A program made the position numbers and the translations under genes. Below the pieces are notes generated by a model. The model made no database searches. It was not told where the DNA came from and saw only the letters and a list, made by a program, of their open reading frames with translations. From NCBI GenBank assembly GCA_913064945.1, contig CAJYAN010000011.1, forward strand, positions 1 to 64,000: 64,000 nucleotides of DNA, in the 5' to 3' direction. This document shows positions 17,202 through 22,750 of the stretch, piece by piece. This DNA is from an uncultured Gammaproteobacteria bacterium (GTDB lineage: Bacteria > Pseudomonadota > Gammaproteobacteria > UBA6429 > Thiohalophilaceae). Each line of letters begins with the position of its first letter. The first letter of the stretch is position 1.

Positions 17202-17212
17202 TGCAGACTGCA
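17202..17212. promoter_or_regulatory. Putative enhancer site upstream of soxY (TGCA-N3-TGCA)
   Basis: TGCAGACTGCA lies about 95 bases before the inferred soxY start point. The same palindrome pattern occurs upstream of the DsrE-like gene and twice upstream of the sensor kinase. It is proposed as a binding site for the NtrC-type regulator at 18970-20340. Confidence 0.5.
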
Positions 17213-17275
17213 ATCATTTTACGACATTATTTGTAGAGTTTTTTATAACATATTGTTTTATATGCTTTTGTATTC

Positions 17276-17291
17276 TGGTATAAGAATTGCT
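17276..17291 (+). promoter_or_regulatory. Sigma-54 (-24/-12) promoter for soxYZ
   Basis: TGGTATAAGAATTGCT has GG and GC separated by exactly ten bases and a perfect TTGCT -12 element. The -24 element (TGGTATA) keeps the essential TGG. The inferred start point is near 17302, and soxY starts at 17340. An NtrC-type activator gene lies 1.6 kb away. Confidence 0.6.
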
Positions 17292-17339: not shown

Positions 17340-17810
17340 ATGAACCACCAACGTCGTACCTTATTAAAGTCCACTGTGGCGACTGGCACCATTGCCATTG
17401 CCATCAGTGCCGGCTTATTAACCCCACAGGCCGTTCTAGCCGCCTGGCCCAAGGCCGCCTTTAACGCCAAATCAGTCGGCGATGCACTCAATACCCTGAT
17501 GGGTGCCAAAGACGCTGTTGCTAGCAAGGACATCCAGGTTGACGCGCCGGACATCGCCGAGAACGGAGCCGTTGTATCGATTAGCATCAAGACCTCGATT
17601 GCCAATGCCGAGCAGATTTCTATCCTGGTAAAAGAAAACAGCTTGCCGTTAGCCGCCAGTTATGTCCTCTCACCGGATACCGAGGGTTATATCACTGGCC
17701 GCATCAAAATGGCGAAGACGTCTGACATTATTGCCGTCGTCAAGGCGGGGAACAAACTGTATATGGCCAAGAAATCCGTAAAAGTCACCCTGGGTGGCTG
17801 TGGCGGTTAA
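17340..17810 (+). CDS. soxY: Thiosulfate oxidation carrier protein SoxY
   Basis: The 156-residue periplasmic sulfur carrier begins with a Tat-type signal (RRTLLKS, hydrophobic region, cleavage near AVLA-AW). It ends in the swinging-arm motif GGCGG, with Cys154 as the covalent sulfur attachment site. The mature domain has the SoxY beta-sandwich pattern (AENGAVVSISIKTSI ... ISILVKENSLPLAASYVL). SoxY pairs with SoxZ, 37 bases downstream. The start ATG has a GAGGAG site. No soxXA, soxB or soxCD is near, so the carrier must work with partners encoded elsewhere or with another sulfur pathway. A sigma-54 promoter precedes it. Confidence 0.96.
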   Translation: MNHQRRTLLKSTVATGTIAIAISAGLLTPQAVLAAWPKAAFNAKSVGDALNTLMGAKDAVASKDIQVDAPDIAENGAVVSISIKTSIANAEQISILVKENSLPLAASYVLSPDTEGYITGRIKMAKTSDIIAVVKAGNKLYMAKKSVKVTLGGCGG

Positions 17811-17847: not shown

Positions 17848-18165
17848 ATGAGTCAAAAGAAAATGAAGATTCGCGCCTGGATGGACGATGGCCGTGCCAA
17901 TGTAAAGGCCATCATTTTTCATCCAATGGAAACAGGCCTGCGCAAAGACAAGGCCAGCGGTAAAATGATCCCCGCTCACTATATTACCGAGGTCGTCTGT
18001 ACGCATAATGGCAAATCAGTCCTCACCTGTTTATGGGGGCCACGAGTATCAAAGAACCCCTTTATCTCCTTTCGTTTCAGGAATGCCAAAGCTGGTGATA
18101 AACTGGAAATTAGCTGGGTCGATAATTTAGGTAATAGTGACAAGTCTGAGGCCAGTATTAGCTAA
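17848..18165 (+). CDS. soxZ: Thiosulfate oxidation carrier complex protein SoxZ
   Basis: The 105-residue partner of SoxY shows the SoxZ pattern VKAIIFHPMETGLRKDKASGKMIPAH at its start, then ITEVVCTHNGKSVL, and the KAGDKLEISWVDNLGN segment near the end. It has no signal peptide, as usual; it crosses the membrane folded with SoxY through the Tat system. It follows soxY by 37 bases and is followed by a strong terminator, so soxYZ is a two-gene unit. Confidence 0.96.
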   Translation: MSQKKMKIRAWMDDGRANVKAIIFHPMETGLRKDKASGKMIPAHYITEVVCTHNGKSVLTCLWGPRVSKNPFISFRFRNAKAGDKLEISWVDNLGNSDKSEASIS

Positions 18166-18292: not shown

Positions 18293-18763
18293 TCAGGGCT
18301 TGATGTACAAATAGCCCTGCTGTTCCAGATCAGCAATCTGTGCCACACCTGAAGGCACAATTTCTGCGTTCACATTAATTTTGTTCTTATCAATTTTCTT
18401 ACCACGAATAGTATTGGCGCAAATCTGGAAACGTACCCCGCGATTGGCCAGCGAGGCAATTTGATCACCAAAGTCATACACCTTGCCGGTCTTGGGATTT
18501 TTCTTACCCATGGAACCATCAACCAGTGCGAAGGCACCTGTGCTGTGAGTGACAATAGTCATATTAATATTTTTTTCACCAACGGCATTGAGATGATTCT
18601 TGGCGTTGCGAAATGCCCCCGTTGCTTTGTTAATGTCATTGACGTGATAGACAACCTTTTGCTTGTTATAACCATTTTCCGCTTTTTCCATTGTGCTACA
18701 AGCGGCGGTTACCAAAATGAACGGCAGCATGGTTGCCATCAATGCTAGTTTACGTAACTTCAT
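18293..18763 (-). CDS. DsrE/DsrF-like family lipoprotein (putative periplasmic sulfur-relay protein)
   Basis: The 156-residue product starts with a lipoprotein-like signal (KLALMATMLPFILVTAACS, candidate lipid-attached Cys22). A DsrE/DsrF-type domain follows: KVVYHVNDINKATGAFRNAKN, then INMTIVTHSTGAFALVDG and VRFQICANTIRG, with the family's candidate active Cys115. Most DsrE proteins are cytoplasmic sulfur carriers, so export and lipidation put this one on the same side as SoxYZ. The ATG at 18763 has a perfect GGAGGAG site, which excludes the longer upstream frame. It converges with soxYZ, lies downstream of the two-component system, and has its own sigma-54 promoter. Its sulfur-transfer role is inferred. 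Confidence 0.85.
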   Translation of the reverse strand: MKLRKLALMATMLPFILVTAACSTMEKAENGYNKQKVVYHVNDINKATGAFRNAKNHLNAVGEKNINMTIVTHSTGAFALVDGSMGKKNPKTGKVYDFGDQIASLANRGVRFQICANTIRGKKIDKNKINVNAEIVPSGVAQIADLEQQGYLYIKP

Positions 18764-18829: not shown

Positions 18830-18845
18830 AGCAAATATCATTCCA
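18830..18845 (-). promoter_or_regulatory. Sigma-54 (-24/-12) promoter for the DsrE-like gene
   Basis: On the minus strand TGGAATGATATTTGCT has TGG, then ten bases between GG and GC, and a perfect TTGCT. The inferred start point is near 18819, about 55 bases before the ATG. Confidence 0.65.
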
Positions 18846-18923: not shown

Positions 18924-18950
18924 TTTTTCGCTGCAATCTGCAACGAAAAA
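18924..18950. promoter_or_regulatory. Palindromic enhancer-like site upstream of the DsrE-like gene
   Basis: Arms TTTTTCGCTGCA and TGCAACGAAAAA match at 11 of 12 positions around a three-base centre, giving the core TGCAATCTGCA (18932-18942). It is centred about 118 bases before the inferred sigma-54 start point, a normal distance for an enhancer-binding protein. It also lies just after the regulator's stop codon; with no T-run it is unlikely to be only a terminator. Confidence 0.55.
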
Positions 18951-18969: not shown

Positions 18970-20340
18970 TTACACCATTTCAGATTGATCTTCATAACGC
19001 CGTAATTTCCGCCACAAGGTTGTCTTGTCTATTCCCAACAACCTTGCTGCCTGTGTTTTTTTACCATTACAGCAACGCAGTACATGACTAATATATTCCT
19101 GTTCCAACTGTTCCAGTGGCATGAAATCGTCATCCGAAAATTGGATGGGAAGCGCCAGAGCAGCGACCGATTCATCGTAGTGGGCATTCCAGTGTAGTAT
19201 AGGTCCATCCGCCAGAATCACACTGCGTTCAATCGTATTACGCAATTCGCGTATATTTCCAGGCCAGGCGGCTTCACAGAGATGTCGTAAAGAAGTGGTG
19301 TCAAATCCTTGCACACGACGAGTGTACTGAGTGGCGAATTCCTGCACATAGTGCTCCACCAGTGCGGGGATGTCCTCCCGACGCTCGGCCAGGCTTGGAA
19401 CACGAATGGTGACGACATTCAAGCGATGATAAAAATCATGACGGAACTTTTTTTCTTCAACCAGGCTGTCCAGATCCTGATTGCTGGCGACAATTATACG
19501 CACATCAATCGGAATCGTTGTCGTCCCGCCGACACGCGTAACGCTTTTGCTCTCAATTGCCCGCATAAGTTTTATTTGCATCGTATCCGAGATATTACAA
19601 ATCTCATCCAGAAACAGCGTACCACCATCTGCCTGCTCCATCAGACCATATTTACGCTGGGTCGCACCAGTGAAGGCACCCTTTTCATGTCCAAATAATT
19701 CACTTTCCAGTAAGGTATCGCTCAGTGCGCCACAGTCAATGGCAACAAAAGGAGCTTCTTTTCTTGGGCTATAATCATGTAGTGCACGCGCAACCAGTTC
19801 CTTACCTGTCCCCGATTCACCAGAGATAATGGCGTTGCAACTTACCTCAGCAAGTTTCTCGATGGTTGTGAATAACGTCTTCATGACAGGCGTATCACCA
19901 ATCATCCCGTAATGGTTCCGTTTACTGCCAAGCCGTTTCTTTAAAAGACGATTCTCATTTTTTAGTCGCACCCCCTTCATGGTGCGATCAAGTCGCAGAC
20001 GTAGCTCCTCAAAGTCAAAGGGTTTTTTGATAAAGTCGGTGGCACCGCGACGCATGGCCTCGACAGCATTTTCAACCGAAGAATACCCCGTCATGACCAG
20101 CACCGGTACTTCCGTATCGACCTCGCGAATATTGCTCAGCAAATCAAAGCCATTCATACCGGGCATGCGTAAATCAGTAATCAATATATCGGCACCATCG
20201 GCCTGAAATGCCTTGAGACAACTTTCGGCATCCTGAAATACTTCACAACGATACTTTGCATGATCACAGTTCCGCTTCATAATCTTGCCGGTCACGAGAT
20301 CATCATCGACAAACATAATACGAATCGGTTTAGATGACAT
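18970..20340 (-). CDS. Sigma-54-dependent response regulator (NtrC type)
   Basis: The 456-residue regulator has three domains. The receiver has an acidic pocket VDDD (11-14) and phosphorylation site Asp56 in DILITDLRMP. The AAA+ domain has Walker A GESGTGKE, the sigma-54-contacting GAFTGA loop in FGHEKGAFTGATQRKYG, and Walker B GGTLFLDEI. The C-terminal Fis-type helix-turn-helix contains KKTQAARLLGIDKTTLWRKL. The ATG at 20340 overlaps the kinase stop by 11 bases, so the two are translationally coupled. The intact GAFTGA means it should activate sigma-54 promoters, and two candidates lie in the same island, at soxY and at the DsrE-like gene. Confidence 0.95.
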   Translation of the reverse strand: MSSKPIRIMFVDDDLVTGKIMKRNCDHAKYRCEVFQDAESCLKAFQADGADILITDLRMPGMNGFDLLSNIREVDTEVPVLVMTGYSSVENAVEAMRRGATDFIKKPFDFEELRLRLDRTMKGVRLKNENRLLKKRLGSKRNHYGMIGDTPVMKTLFTTIEKLAEVSCNAIISGESGTGKELVARALHDYSPRKEAPFVAIDCGALSDTLLESELFGHEKGAFTGATQRKYGLMEQADGGTLFLDEICNISDTMQIKLMRAIESKSVTRVGGTTTIPIDVRIIVASNQDLDSLVEEKKFRHDFYHRLNVVTIRVPSLAERREDIPALVEHYVQEFATQYTRRVQGFDTTSLRHLCEAAWPGNIRELRNTIERSVILADGPILHWNAHYDESVAALALPIQFSDDDFMPLEQLEQEYISHVLRCCNGKKTQAARLLGIDKTTLWRKLRRYEDQSEMV

Positions 20341-22297
20341 TTGCTGCCTCCAAAACAGATGTTTCTGAAATGTTCTGATTAGCCTTAACAGGCAACAGCA
20401 TTCTGACACATACCCCGCCAGCGTTATTGTTGCCCAGGTGAATCGTGCCGCCATGATCTTTCACAATGCCATAGCTCACTGACAAACCCAGCCCGGTCCC
20501 TTCACCCTCTTCTTTGGTGGTAAAAAACGGGTCGAATATCCTGGCCAAATGTTCTTCAGCAATCCCCATGCCCTCATCCTGTATTTCAATATGTAACTGT
20601 TTATTAATATCATCAGAATGAGCATCCAGCCTAATGGTGCTGCCTTCTTTTGATGCCTGTATGGCGTTAAATAGAATATTGACTAACACCTGCTGCAACA
20701 ATTTGTCATCACCGTGCAGCATGAGTGATTTCTGTATAGATGATTGCAGCTCAATATTTTTCATTTCAAAACGGTGATGCAGTAACGACAGGGTTTCTTC
20801 AATGAGACAGCTCATATCAAATAGTCGATGACAGGGCTTGGTTTCACGTGCAAAACTTAAAATACCCTGCACGATTCCCGCACAACGCTCACCCTCGTTT
20901 TTTAATAGCTTGATGTCGCTGAGAAGTTGCTCATCCTTATCTTTGACAGAGTCTTCGATCAACGCCGCCAATGACATAATGTTCATCAAAGGATTATTGA
21001 TCTCATGGCCGATGCCCGCCGCCATTTGACCGACCGAAGCAAGCCGCTCCGATTGCTGCGCGGCCTTTTCCGCCATATCGCGCTCTGACTCAGCCTGCTG
21101 CAGCTTTCGGGTAAGGTAATTGAAGGCCTTCCCTGCCAGACCAATTTCATCGCGGCGTTTTCCGGTATAGCGCACTGTGGCGTCGCCATCTGCATAACGC
21201 GTGATCATCTCAGCCAGTGCATGCACTGGCCGGGTTAACTGGTATGCCGCCCACACGGCCAATAGCAAACTGATCACCAGTAATATGCCCATTAACCACC
21301 ATATCGAGTGGCGCATTTTATTAATGGGGGAGAATATGACCTGTGAATCTGCTTCGACAATCAATAACCACTTCGTGGCTCGATCTTTAAATGGCGATAT
21401 TTTACGGAAGAACAGCATGCGTCCGTTATCACGATATAAGGCACCATGTTCCTGTACTTCAGATACCTGTCTCCATTCGGCCGGATTAAGCTCATTAGAC
21501 AGACGATATTGAGAATGCATCTGGTCGGCAAAGCGTCGACGTGAATCAGGATGATAGAGATAGATACCATCTCGCGGTGTCCCCGGATTCAGTTCGACAA
21601 TATAGGCGGTACCGGGATAGCCCTGTAGTGATGCCTCCATGGCCGCATCTACCCGTGAGCCCCACATATTGACCGTTAGCAAGCCTTCAATATGATCCAG
21701 TTCGTCTTTCACAATGACCGAATACCGAACCATGGCCGGGCAAAAGTCTGCCCTACCGGTCACCTGTCCAAGTTCAAAATCTGACATCGCCACATCGGTG
21801 CGGTCTGACATGGCGATTTTAAAGAACCGTTTAGACGATTGATCGGCAATATAAAGCCGTGAGGCCGTCGCATCTTCAAGCTTGGGCTCAATGGGCTTAC
21901 CTTCTTTGATCTTGACCAGAGTCTTACCACTCGGGTCGATAAAGCGTAATGCCTGGATACTGCCGACGACGTGCTGGTAGTTGAGAAAAAACTGTTCCAG
22001 GTCATCGGCACTTTGTTTGTATTCGAGATTGGAAATCTTCCCGTCGGCATACGCCATTGAGGCGGCCGCAAATTGCTTCACGGCAGGGACCCGTGAGAGC
22101 CCCTTGGCGATGGATTTTTGATTTTGCAGGATAAGGTTCAGTTCGGCCGCAATCTTGTCCAGCGTGCCATGCAATTCCTGCTCAGTACGACTACGGACCT
22201 CATTTTCCATACGCTCAACCACCCCAAAGAGGAGTATCAGCAAAGGAATCGCTGTGAGCAGGCTTAAGGAAATGAAAAATTTATGTCGTAGCTGCAT
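20330..22297 (-). CDS. Membrane sensor histidine kinase with periplasmic sensor domain
   Basis: The 655-residue protein has a first membrane helix (about 7-27), a large periplasmic region (about 30-325) with the layout of a double-Cache sensor (SIQALRFIDPSGKTLVKI ... DRTDVAMSDFELG), and a second membrane helix (about 331-353). A HAMP domain, then HisKA with phospho-accepting His431 in GIGHEINNPL, and an ATPase domain (N box NILFNAIQAS, DEGMGIA, TGLGLSVSYG) follow. Three or more Cys lie in the sensor and kinase parts, including Cys186 in the sensor. The ligand is unknown; the location beside soxYZ suggests a sulfur compound or a redox cue, by inference only. Confidence 0.93.
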   Translation of the reverse strand: MQLRHKFFISLSLLTAIPLLILLFGVVERMENEVRSRTEQELHGTLDKIAAELNLILQNQKSIAKGLSRVPAVKQFAAASMAYADGKISNLEYKQSADDLEQFFLNYQHVVGSIQALRFIDPSGKTLVKIKEGKPIEPKLEDATASRLYIADQSSKRFFKIAMSDRTDVAMSDFELGQVTGRADFCPAMVRYSVIVKDELDHIEGLLTVNMWGSRVDAAMEASLQGYPGTAYIVELNPGTPRDGIYLYHPDSRRRFADQMHSQYRLSNELNPAEWRQVSEVQEHGALYRDNGRMLFFRKISPFKDRATKWLLIVEADSQVIFSPINKMRHSIWWLMGILLVISLLLAVWAAYQLTRPVHALAEMITRYADGDATVRYTGKRRDEIGLAGKAFNYLTRKLQQAESERDMAEKAAQQSERLASVGQMAAGIGHEINNPLMNIMSLAALIEDSVKDKDEQLLSDIKLLKNEGERCAGIVQGILSFARETKPCHRLFDMSCLIEETLSLLHHRFEMKNIELQSSIQKSLMLHGDDKLLQQVLVNILFNAIQASKEGSTIRLDAHSDDINKQLHIEIQDEGMGIAEEHLARIFDPFFTTKEEGEGTGLGLSVSYGIVKDHGGTIHLGNNNAGGVCVRMLLPVKANQNISETSVLEAANVI

Positions 22298-22322: not shown

Positions 22323-22410
22323 TGCAATATGCAGACTAACAAATACGAATTGGCTAGTCTATATCCACTCTACATATAAGTTTTTAATTATATACTAATT
22401 GCATAATGCA
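22323..22410. promoter_or_regulatory. Two TGCA-N3-TGCA sites in the kinase upstream region
   Basis: TGCAATATGCA (22323-22333) and TGCATAATGCA (22400-22410) lie in the 132-base gap before the kinase gene. The first is one base from the core at 18932-18942. A weak sigma-54-like element (TGG-N9-GC type, 22351-22368, minus strand) lies between them. They suggest autoregulation of the two-component system. Confidence 0.4.
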
Positions 22411-22429
22411 GACAGGACTGCAAAGTGAA

Positions 22430-22750
22430 TCATTTTTTGCGCTGTACCAATAGCTGCTTCACATTGTAACGAAAGACAAAACCCGGCAAAGCAAATACCA
22501 GGAACAGACACAGAGTGACTACATAAAATTCCCAGCCTTGTGCATGCCGCTCGCCGGTGGCCTTGAACTCCAGACCGACCGCCATAAACCCTACCAGGAA
22601 ATAATAGCTCAGCCATTCCGCCCAGCGTATCCACACACGCTTGCCCAGCGGCGGCGTCGACATAAAAATAAAAACCCGGTCACTTAACCAGGGTAAATTA
22701 GCGGCAATCAGTGCGACCAGCACCAGCAGTACGACAGAAAAACTTAGCAT
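22430..22750 (-). CDS. DUF2818 family membrane protein
   Basis: The 106-residue protein has three or four membrane helices (FSVVLLVLVALIAANLPWL, WLSYYFLVGFMAVGLEF, FYVVTLCLFLVFALPGFVF) and the DUF2818 pattern with LPWLSDR and GFVFRY. In many beta- and gammaproteobacteria this family sits directly after nuoN, as here, 21 bases downstream on the same strand. The position suggests a role in complex I assembly or function, but none is established. It ends with a basic tail. Confidence 0.85.
   Translation of the reverse strand: MLSFSVVLLVLVALIAANLPWLSDRVFIFMSTPPLGKRVWIRWAEWLSYYFLVGFMAVGLEFKATGERHAQGWEFYVVTLCLFLVFALPGFVFRYNVKQLLVQRKK

Follow-up and report, generated by a model that had tools for sequence, protein, structure and literature searches.

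The window, as the whole 64,000-nucleotide stretch of DNA analysed here is called, contains a sulfur-oxidation island that includes soxYZ, a dsrE-family gene and the genes of a two-component system. The features of the island are as follows:

17202..17212, predicted upstream activating site for soxYZ, 138 bp 5' of the soxY ATG; present as an exact match in 21 of 23 orthologous soxY regions
17276..17291, plus strand, sigma54 -24/-12 box TGGTATAAGAATTGCT for soxYZ, placed 74 bp from where the site starts
17340..17810, plus strand, soxY (PF13501; TIGR04488 over cut-off)
17848..18165, plus strand, soxZ (PF08770; TIGR04490 over cut-off)
18293..18763, minus strand, dsrE-family gene (PF02635; N terminus lipoprotein-like by eye)
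18830..18845, minus strand, sigma54 box TGGAATGATATTTGCT for dsrE, placed 97 bp from where the site starts
18932..18942, predicted upstream activating site for dsrE; present as an exact match in 37 of 42 orthologous dsrE regions
18970..20340, minus strand, NtrC-family response regulator, RR1 (PF00072, PF00158 and PF02954, all over cut-offs)
20330..22297, minus strand, sensor histidine kinase (HAMP, HisKA, HATPase_c; a Cache match is below the Pfam cut-off)
22323..22333, predicted kinase-proximal operator, 36 bp 5' of the kinase start; exact site in 34 of 39 orthologous regions
22400..22410, predicted kinase-distal operator, at -113; 11 distal sites in 39 orthologous regions

RR1 consists of a receiver, an AAA+ sigma54-activation domain and a Fis-type helix-turn-helix (HTH), and its GAFTGA sigma54-contact loop, Walker A and B motifs and receiver aspartate are all intact. 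The genome of origin (G000) also encodes rpoN (PF04552 match). The dsrE-family product is given no family by NCBIfam. The start of its gene was read as 18763 because of a ribosome-binding-like GGAGGAG and the starts of the orthologues; a mechanical frame that starts instead from an ATG farther upstream (18955, in frame with dsrE) overlaps the site at 18932. A second mechanical frame, a 79-residue ORF at 22395-22634, overlaps the distal kinase site.

The palindrome TGCA-N3-TGCA is found in the window only four times, with cores at 17202, 18932, 22323 and 22400, exactly where a previous sequence-only reading had placed them. All four lie between genes of the island, as that reading also held: the 18932 core is located between the RR1 stop codon (18970) and the conserved dsrE start (18763), and the 22323 and 22400 cores between the kinase start (22297) and the stop codon of a DUF2818 gene (22430). 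The motif had been described as confined to the island, which is true of the window but not of the genome, where a count found 46 other places (35 of them within ORFs and 11 intergenic by a crude ORF call). In total, there are 50 motif places in 3.215 Mb, or about 1.0 per 64 kb, near the base-composition expectation. The earlier estimate of about one copy per 64 kb thus fits the genome, whereas dinucleotide shuffles of the window itself contain 2.19 motifs on average. Because 21 of 100 shuffles reach four or more, the window count is not significant by itself and was not used as proof. Four motifs inside 5,209 bp have a Poisson P of 1.7e-6, and about 0.004 such clusters are expected per genome. 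Since the genome-wide count is at background, a large regulon is excluded. One of the intergenic motifs outside the island is found upstream of soxB, and the module of a paralogous regulator, described below, also has the motif. The others, whose neighbours include GFA-domain, NMT1-like, thiamine-binding and lysine-decarboxylase-like genes, were considered as regulon members; no sulfur link was seen among them, and they were treated as background.

Orthologous loci were collected into a set of 42, made up of the window, 25 loci mostly from the same family with regulators 61-73% identical, and 16 loci with regulators 60-71% identical. They provide 104 usable upstream regions (20.5 kb in all), namely those of 23 soxY, 42 dsrE and 39 kinase genes. 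Regions truncated at a contig end, or belonging to alignments starting past residue 40, were left out, as was L103, which has a 57% identical regulator in another neighbourhood. The paralogue loci L231-L234 were handled separately, and a search of named relatives gave only 36-43% identical proteins, which were set aside.

The upstream DNA contains 103 copies of TGCA-N3-TGCA, distributed over 92 of the 104 regions, and the 308 kb of coding sequence of the same loci contains 18. As controls, 15 other 4-base palindromes with a spacing of 3 were found 0-4 times each in the 104 upstream regions, and none of the other spacings of TGCA pairs between 0 and 20 gave more than 11 copies. The soxY sites are 132-172 bp 5' of the gene (typically about 145) and the dsrE sites 147-216 bp (typically about 180), while in the 39 kinase regions there are 34 proximal sites at -28 to -36 (typically about 31 bp) and 11 distal sites at -100 to -138. 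The recognition helix of the regulator starts with KTTLWRKL in 43 of 43 aligned orthologues. Two further features that had drawn attention in the window do not share in this conservation. The extended arms of the 18924-18950 copy are real in the window, but only 1 of 37 dsrE sites has them (10 flanking pairs when one mismatch is tolerated; at most 3 pairs in the others). The proposed continuation of the motif as TGCAGAC differs in register from one window copy to another and is not conserved as a flank.

The sites upstream of soxY and dsrE are followed by sigma54 boxes. Among promoters that have both a box and an exact site, the distance from site to box is 74-77 bp in all 15 soxY promoters and 95-101 bp in 22 of 29 dsrE promoters, the remaining seven having distances of 84, 87, 110, 111, 116, 120 and 120 bp. 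A box is present in 47 of 53 soxY and dsrE promoters of loci whose regulator has a GAFTGA or GSFTGA loop, against 0.9% in shuffles; the loops of L225 and L226 were identified as GAFTGA by alignment. Six of the 53 promoters lack a good box in spite of the intact loop; G006, with exact sites, accounts for two. Four loci with intact loops (L102, L222, L224 and L228) have no dsrE box over the threshold. Because of their fixed positions and the constrained spacing of the soxY and dsrE boxes, the sites are taken to be upstream activating sequences and autoregulatory operators. Helical phasing of the spacings, of which 16 are distinct, is only suggestive (p of about 0.075 at 10.5 bp and 0.013 at 11 bp, both periods chosen post hoc). 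A T-rich stretch resembling TTGTTTTTA recurs by eye between the soxY operator and the box, for example at 17250-17270 in the window, and could be a site for a bending protein (IHF).

The kinase-regulator operon is arranged differently. In the window, there is no convincing sigma54 box between the sites at 22323 and 22400 and the kinase start. A -10-like hexamer is found 2-4 bp 5' of the proximal site in 20 of 34 loci, against 8.4 expected, although it is absent in the window. The placement of the proximal site just past this hexamer suggests repression, and RR1 most likely represses its own kinase-regulator operon. Autoregulation, which had been suggested from the letters of the window, is strongly supported by the conservation of this site before the kinase gene. 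The distal site has an extra TGCA 8 bp past the palindrome (TGCA-N3-TGCA-N8-TGCA, 22400-22422), and a similar arrangement is seen beside the paralogue sites of L105, L108, L232 and L234.

It is very probable that the four palindromes are sites for RR1, serving as enhancers for soxYZ and dsrE via sigma54 and as operators through which its own operon is autoregulated. The kinase would phosphorylate RR1 in response to a signal that is most likely a reduced sulfur compound. RR1 would then bind at 17202 and 18932 as an enhancer-binding protein and activate soxYZ and dsrE by driving sigma54 polymerase at the boxes that follow 74 and 97 bp farther on. In front of its own operon, RR1 would occupy 22323 and 22400, most likely with a repressing effect. 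At the sequence level, this reading draws on the presence, conservation and placement of the sites, on the boxes and the distances at which they follow, and on the joint loss of the boxes and the GAFTGA loop. The attribution of the sites to the local regulator, already made from the window, is strongly supported by their recurrence at the same positions in 42 loci that have RR1. The system is well supported: the sites and the idea of the sequence-only reading were right, and the long arms and TGCAGAC are incidental.

The joint loss is seen in two genera, g14 and g15. The loop of the g14 regulators is NAFSGA in five genomes and deleted in one (L095, L096, L098, L101, L230 and L075), and that of g15 is KGVNDA or HGVNDA (L099 and L100). 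In the loci with changed loops, a sigma54 box is present in 0 of 12 soxY and dsrE promoters (seven loci), compared to the 47 of 53 where the loop is intact (Fisher p = 5e-9, a value that overstates independence because the changes represent one or two events on the regulator tree). Both genera retain the palindromes and the recognition helix without change. rpoN was found in seven of the eight g14 and g15 genomes, the eighth, G058, having been outside the rpoN search. L097 (G006) has degraded soxY and dsrE boxes even though its loop is GSFTGA, and G006 is perhaps an early stage of sigma54 loss.

The same genera also have a second regulator. RR2 is a paralogue 53% identical to RR1, and in the genome of the window and in others RR2 and its kinase precede a second soxY with the same motif. 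TGCA-N3-TGCA is found 12-111 bp after RR2 in 12 of 17 readable loci, most of which have a box before this soxY. In g14 and g15, RR2 retains GAFTGA in seven of seven loci read, and in each of the six readable RR2 promoters 76-78 bp separate a TGCA-N3-TGCA site from a GG-N10-GC box ahead of the second soxY (the boxes of L300 and L302 were judged by eye). These loci show, within a single family, an apparent change of sigma partner on unchanged operators. The balance of the evidence tips towards an enhancer-binding sox regulator that in g14 and g15 has lost both its loop and its boxes but kept its operators, next to a sister module that is still of the sigma54 type; the family would thereby offer a before-and-after series leading to a sigma70-type regulator on unchanged sites. 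NtrC-type proteins that lack GAFTGA and act at sigma70 promoters are known from other bacteria, as described in the available part of PMC10274813.

In many assemblies, contigs break about 80-330 bp inside the second soxY after RR2 (G000:C16:1-1674, which is L105, as well as L108, L232, L234, L297-L299 and L302-L304), and only one SoxY was found in the genome of the window. The breaks suggest that a second, near-identical soxYZ copy was collapsed by assembly.

Copies of soxY away from the RR1 island served as a control. There were 30 matches, of which 19 were taken and 18 were readable, L306 being left out with its 14 bp of upstream sequence. An exact site is present in four of the 18 (G197, G328, G059 and G026) and no exact site in the other 14. 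In G197 and G328, soxYZ stands alone on contigs away from the kinase-regulator pair, and site and box are 77 bp apart; G059, which belongs to g14, has a site without a box, and G026 has a site with a degenerate box. Four of the 14 siteless copies, including those of G011 and G022, follow what by eye is a SoxX-like end, and the best regulator matches in these two genomes are weak (E no better than 4e-94). Another three of the 14, from family f2, come immediately after RR2; they have a box yet lack an exact site, and this speaks against a universal rule.

In the genome of the window, soxB is on a different contig, and an exact site precedes it by 196 bp. Of 29 usable soxB upstream regions, 13 contain an exact site, and other palindromes are present in at most 3 of 29. 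The set left out L250, with 10 bp of upstream sequence, and a second G032 copy that has no locus. Most of the soxB sites have no convincing sigma54 box. One-mismatch sites, which are the sole site in five of the 29 regions, are near chance by our own estimate and were not counted. In g14 and g15 (L242, L245, L246 and L259), the soxB site is farther out, at -282 to -343, and a sigma54-like TGGCATA... is found about 200 bp downstream of it, an arrangement unlike that of soxY and dsrE.

Because RR2 uses the same core, some of the sites could be shared with RR2 or bound by it. A stronger form of this idea, that the sites belong mainly to RR2 or are common to both proteins in a shared regulon, appears unlikely, although it can draw on the RR2 modules described above and on the similarity of the recognition helices (KTTLWRKL in RR1 and KSTLWRKL in RR2). 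The boxes of the first soxY and of dsrE vanish where RR1 has lost GAFTGA, while RR2 keeps both GAFTGA and its own box. In addition, CGTGCA/TGCACG flanks are frequent at RR2-type sites but rare at window-type sites.

That the hairpin at 18924-18950 serves chiefly to terminate transcription of the regulator gene is improbable. It is indeed a long inverted repeat that comes soon after the regulator stop codon; however, no T-run follows it, and the long arms are nearly unique among the orthologous sites, whereas the core is kept in most of the dsrE regions.

More doubtful still is the proposal that an unrelated global factor binds the motif and that its adjacency to the regulator is a coincidence. 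Other proteins can evidently read such a sequence, since TGCA-N3-TGCA is the core of the site TTGCA-N3-TGCAA that LuxO of Vibrio recognises, according to the available part of PMC3352281. However, the background-level genome count leaves no large regulon for such a factor, and the conserved sites cluster at genes linked to the regulator. Chance occurrence of a short palindrome, despite the shuffles that reach four copies, is refuted by the positional conservation in 42 loci and by the palindrome and spacing controls.

RR1, as the predicted regulator at these sites, invites comparison with several known systems. As far as the accessible accounts describe it, the LuxO/qrr system likewise combines an NtrC-family response regulator, a TGCA-N3-TGCA core and sigma54 promoters downstream, and the LuxO regulon of V. 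cholerae is very small, with 5 ChIP peaks (PMC10328515). RR1 is not LuxO, an identity ruled out by the NCBIfam model, for which RR1 scores 329 bits against a cut-off of 800 (NF041946). The targets also differ, being sox and dsrE genes here and small RNAs in the case of LuxO as described, and, compared to the LuxO site as reported there, the outer bases vary in window-type sites.

Another parallel, similar in function, is TspS-TspR of the sox-II cluster of Acidithiobacillus caldus, described as a sigma54-dependent two-component system by sox genes with an upstream activating site (PMC6335251). Its reported upstream activating site, TGTCCCAAATGGGACA, differs from the TGCA-N3-TGCA of the window; the two systems were compared by site only. 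In having lost the sigma54-contact loop, the g14 and g15 orthologues resemble the unconventional NtrC of Caulobacter and Rhodobacter capsulatus and similar Vibrio regulators, as the same partial source on such proteins (PMC10274813) presents them. Unlike in those cases as described, the operators are kept here while the boxes are gone, and a paralogue retains both. The gene neighbourhood itself, with soxYZ beside a sigma-54 regulator and a histidine kinase, was already noted in Thiohalomonadales genomes of lucinid symbionts (PMC11237559); the part of that description available gives no operator or regulon analysis of the kind presented here. A literature search in which subscription papers were mostly out of reach found no paper on TGCA-N3-TGCA as the operator of a sox regulator.

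The island may provide a testable circuit of Sox control for many sulfur oxidisers of the gammaproteobacterial type, in which the operator and the promoters are defined and the regulon is small. Since the same operators serve a sigma54-type regulator and, in the paired genomes, an apparently sigma54-independent one, the change of sigma partner is directly testable.
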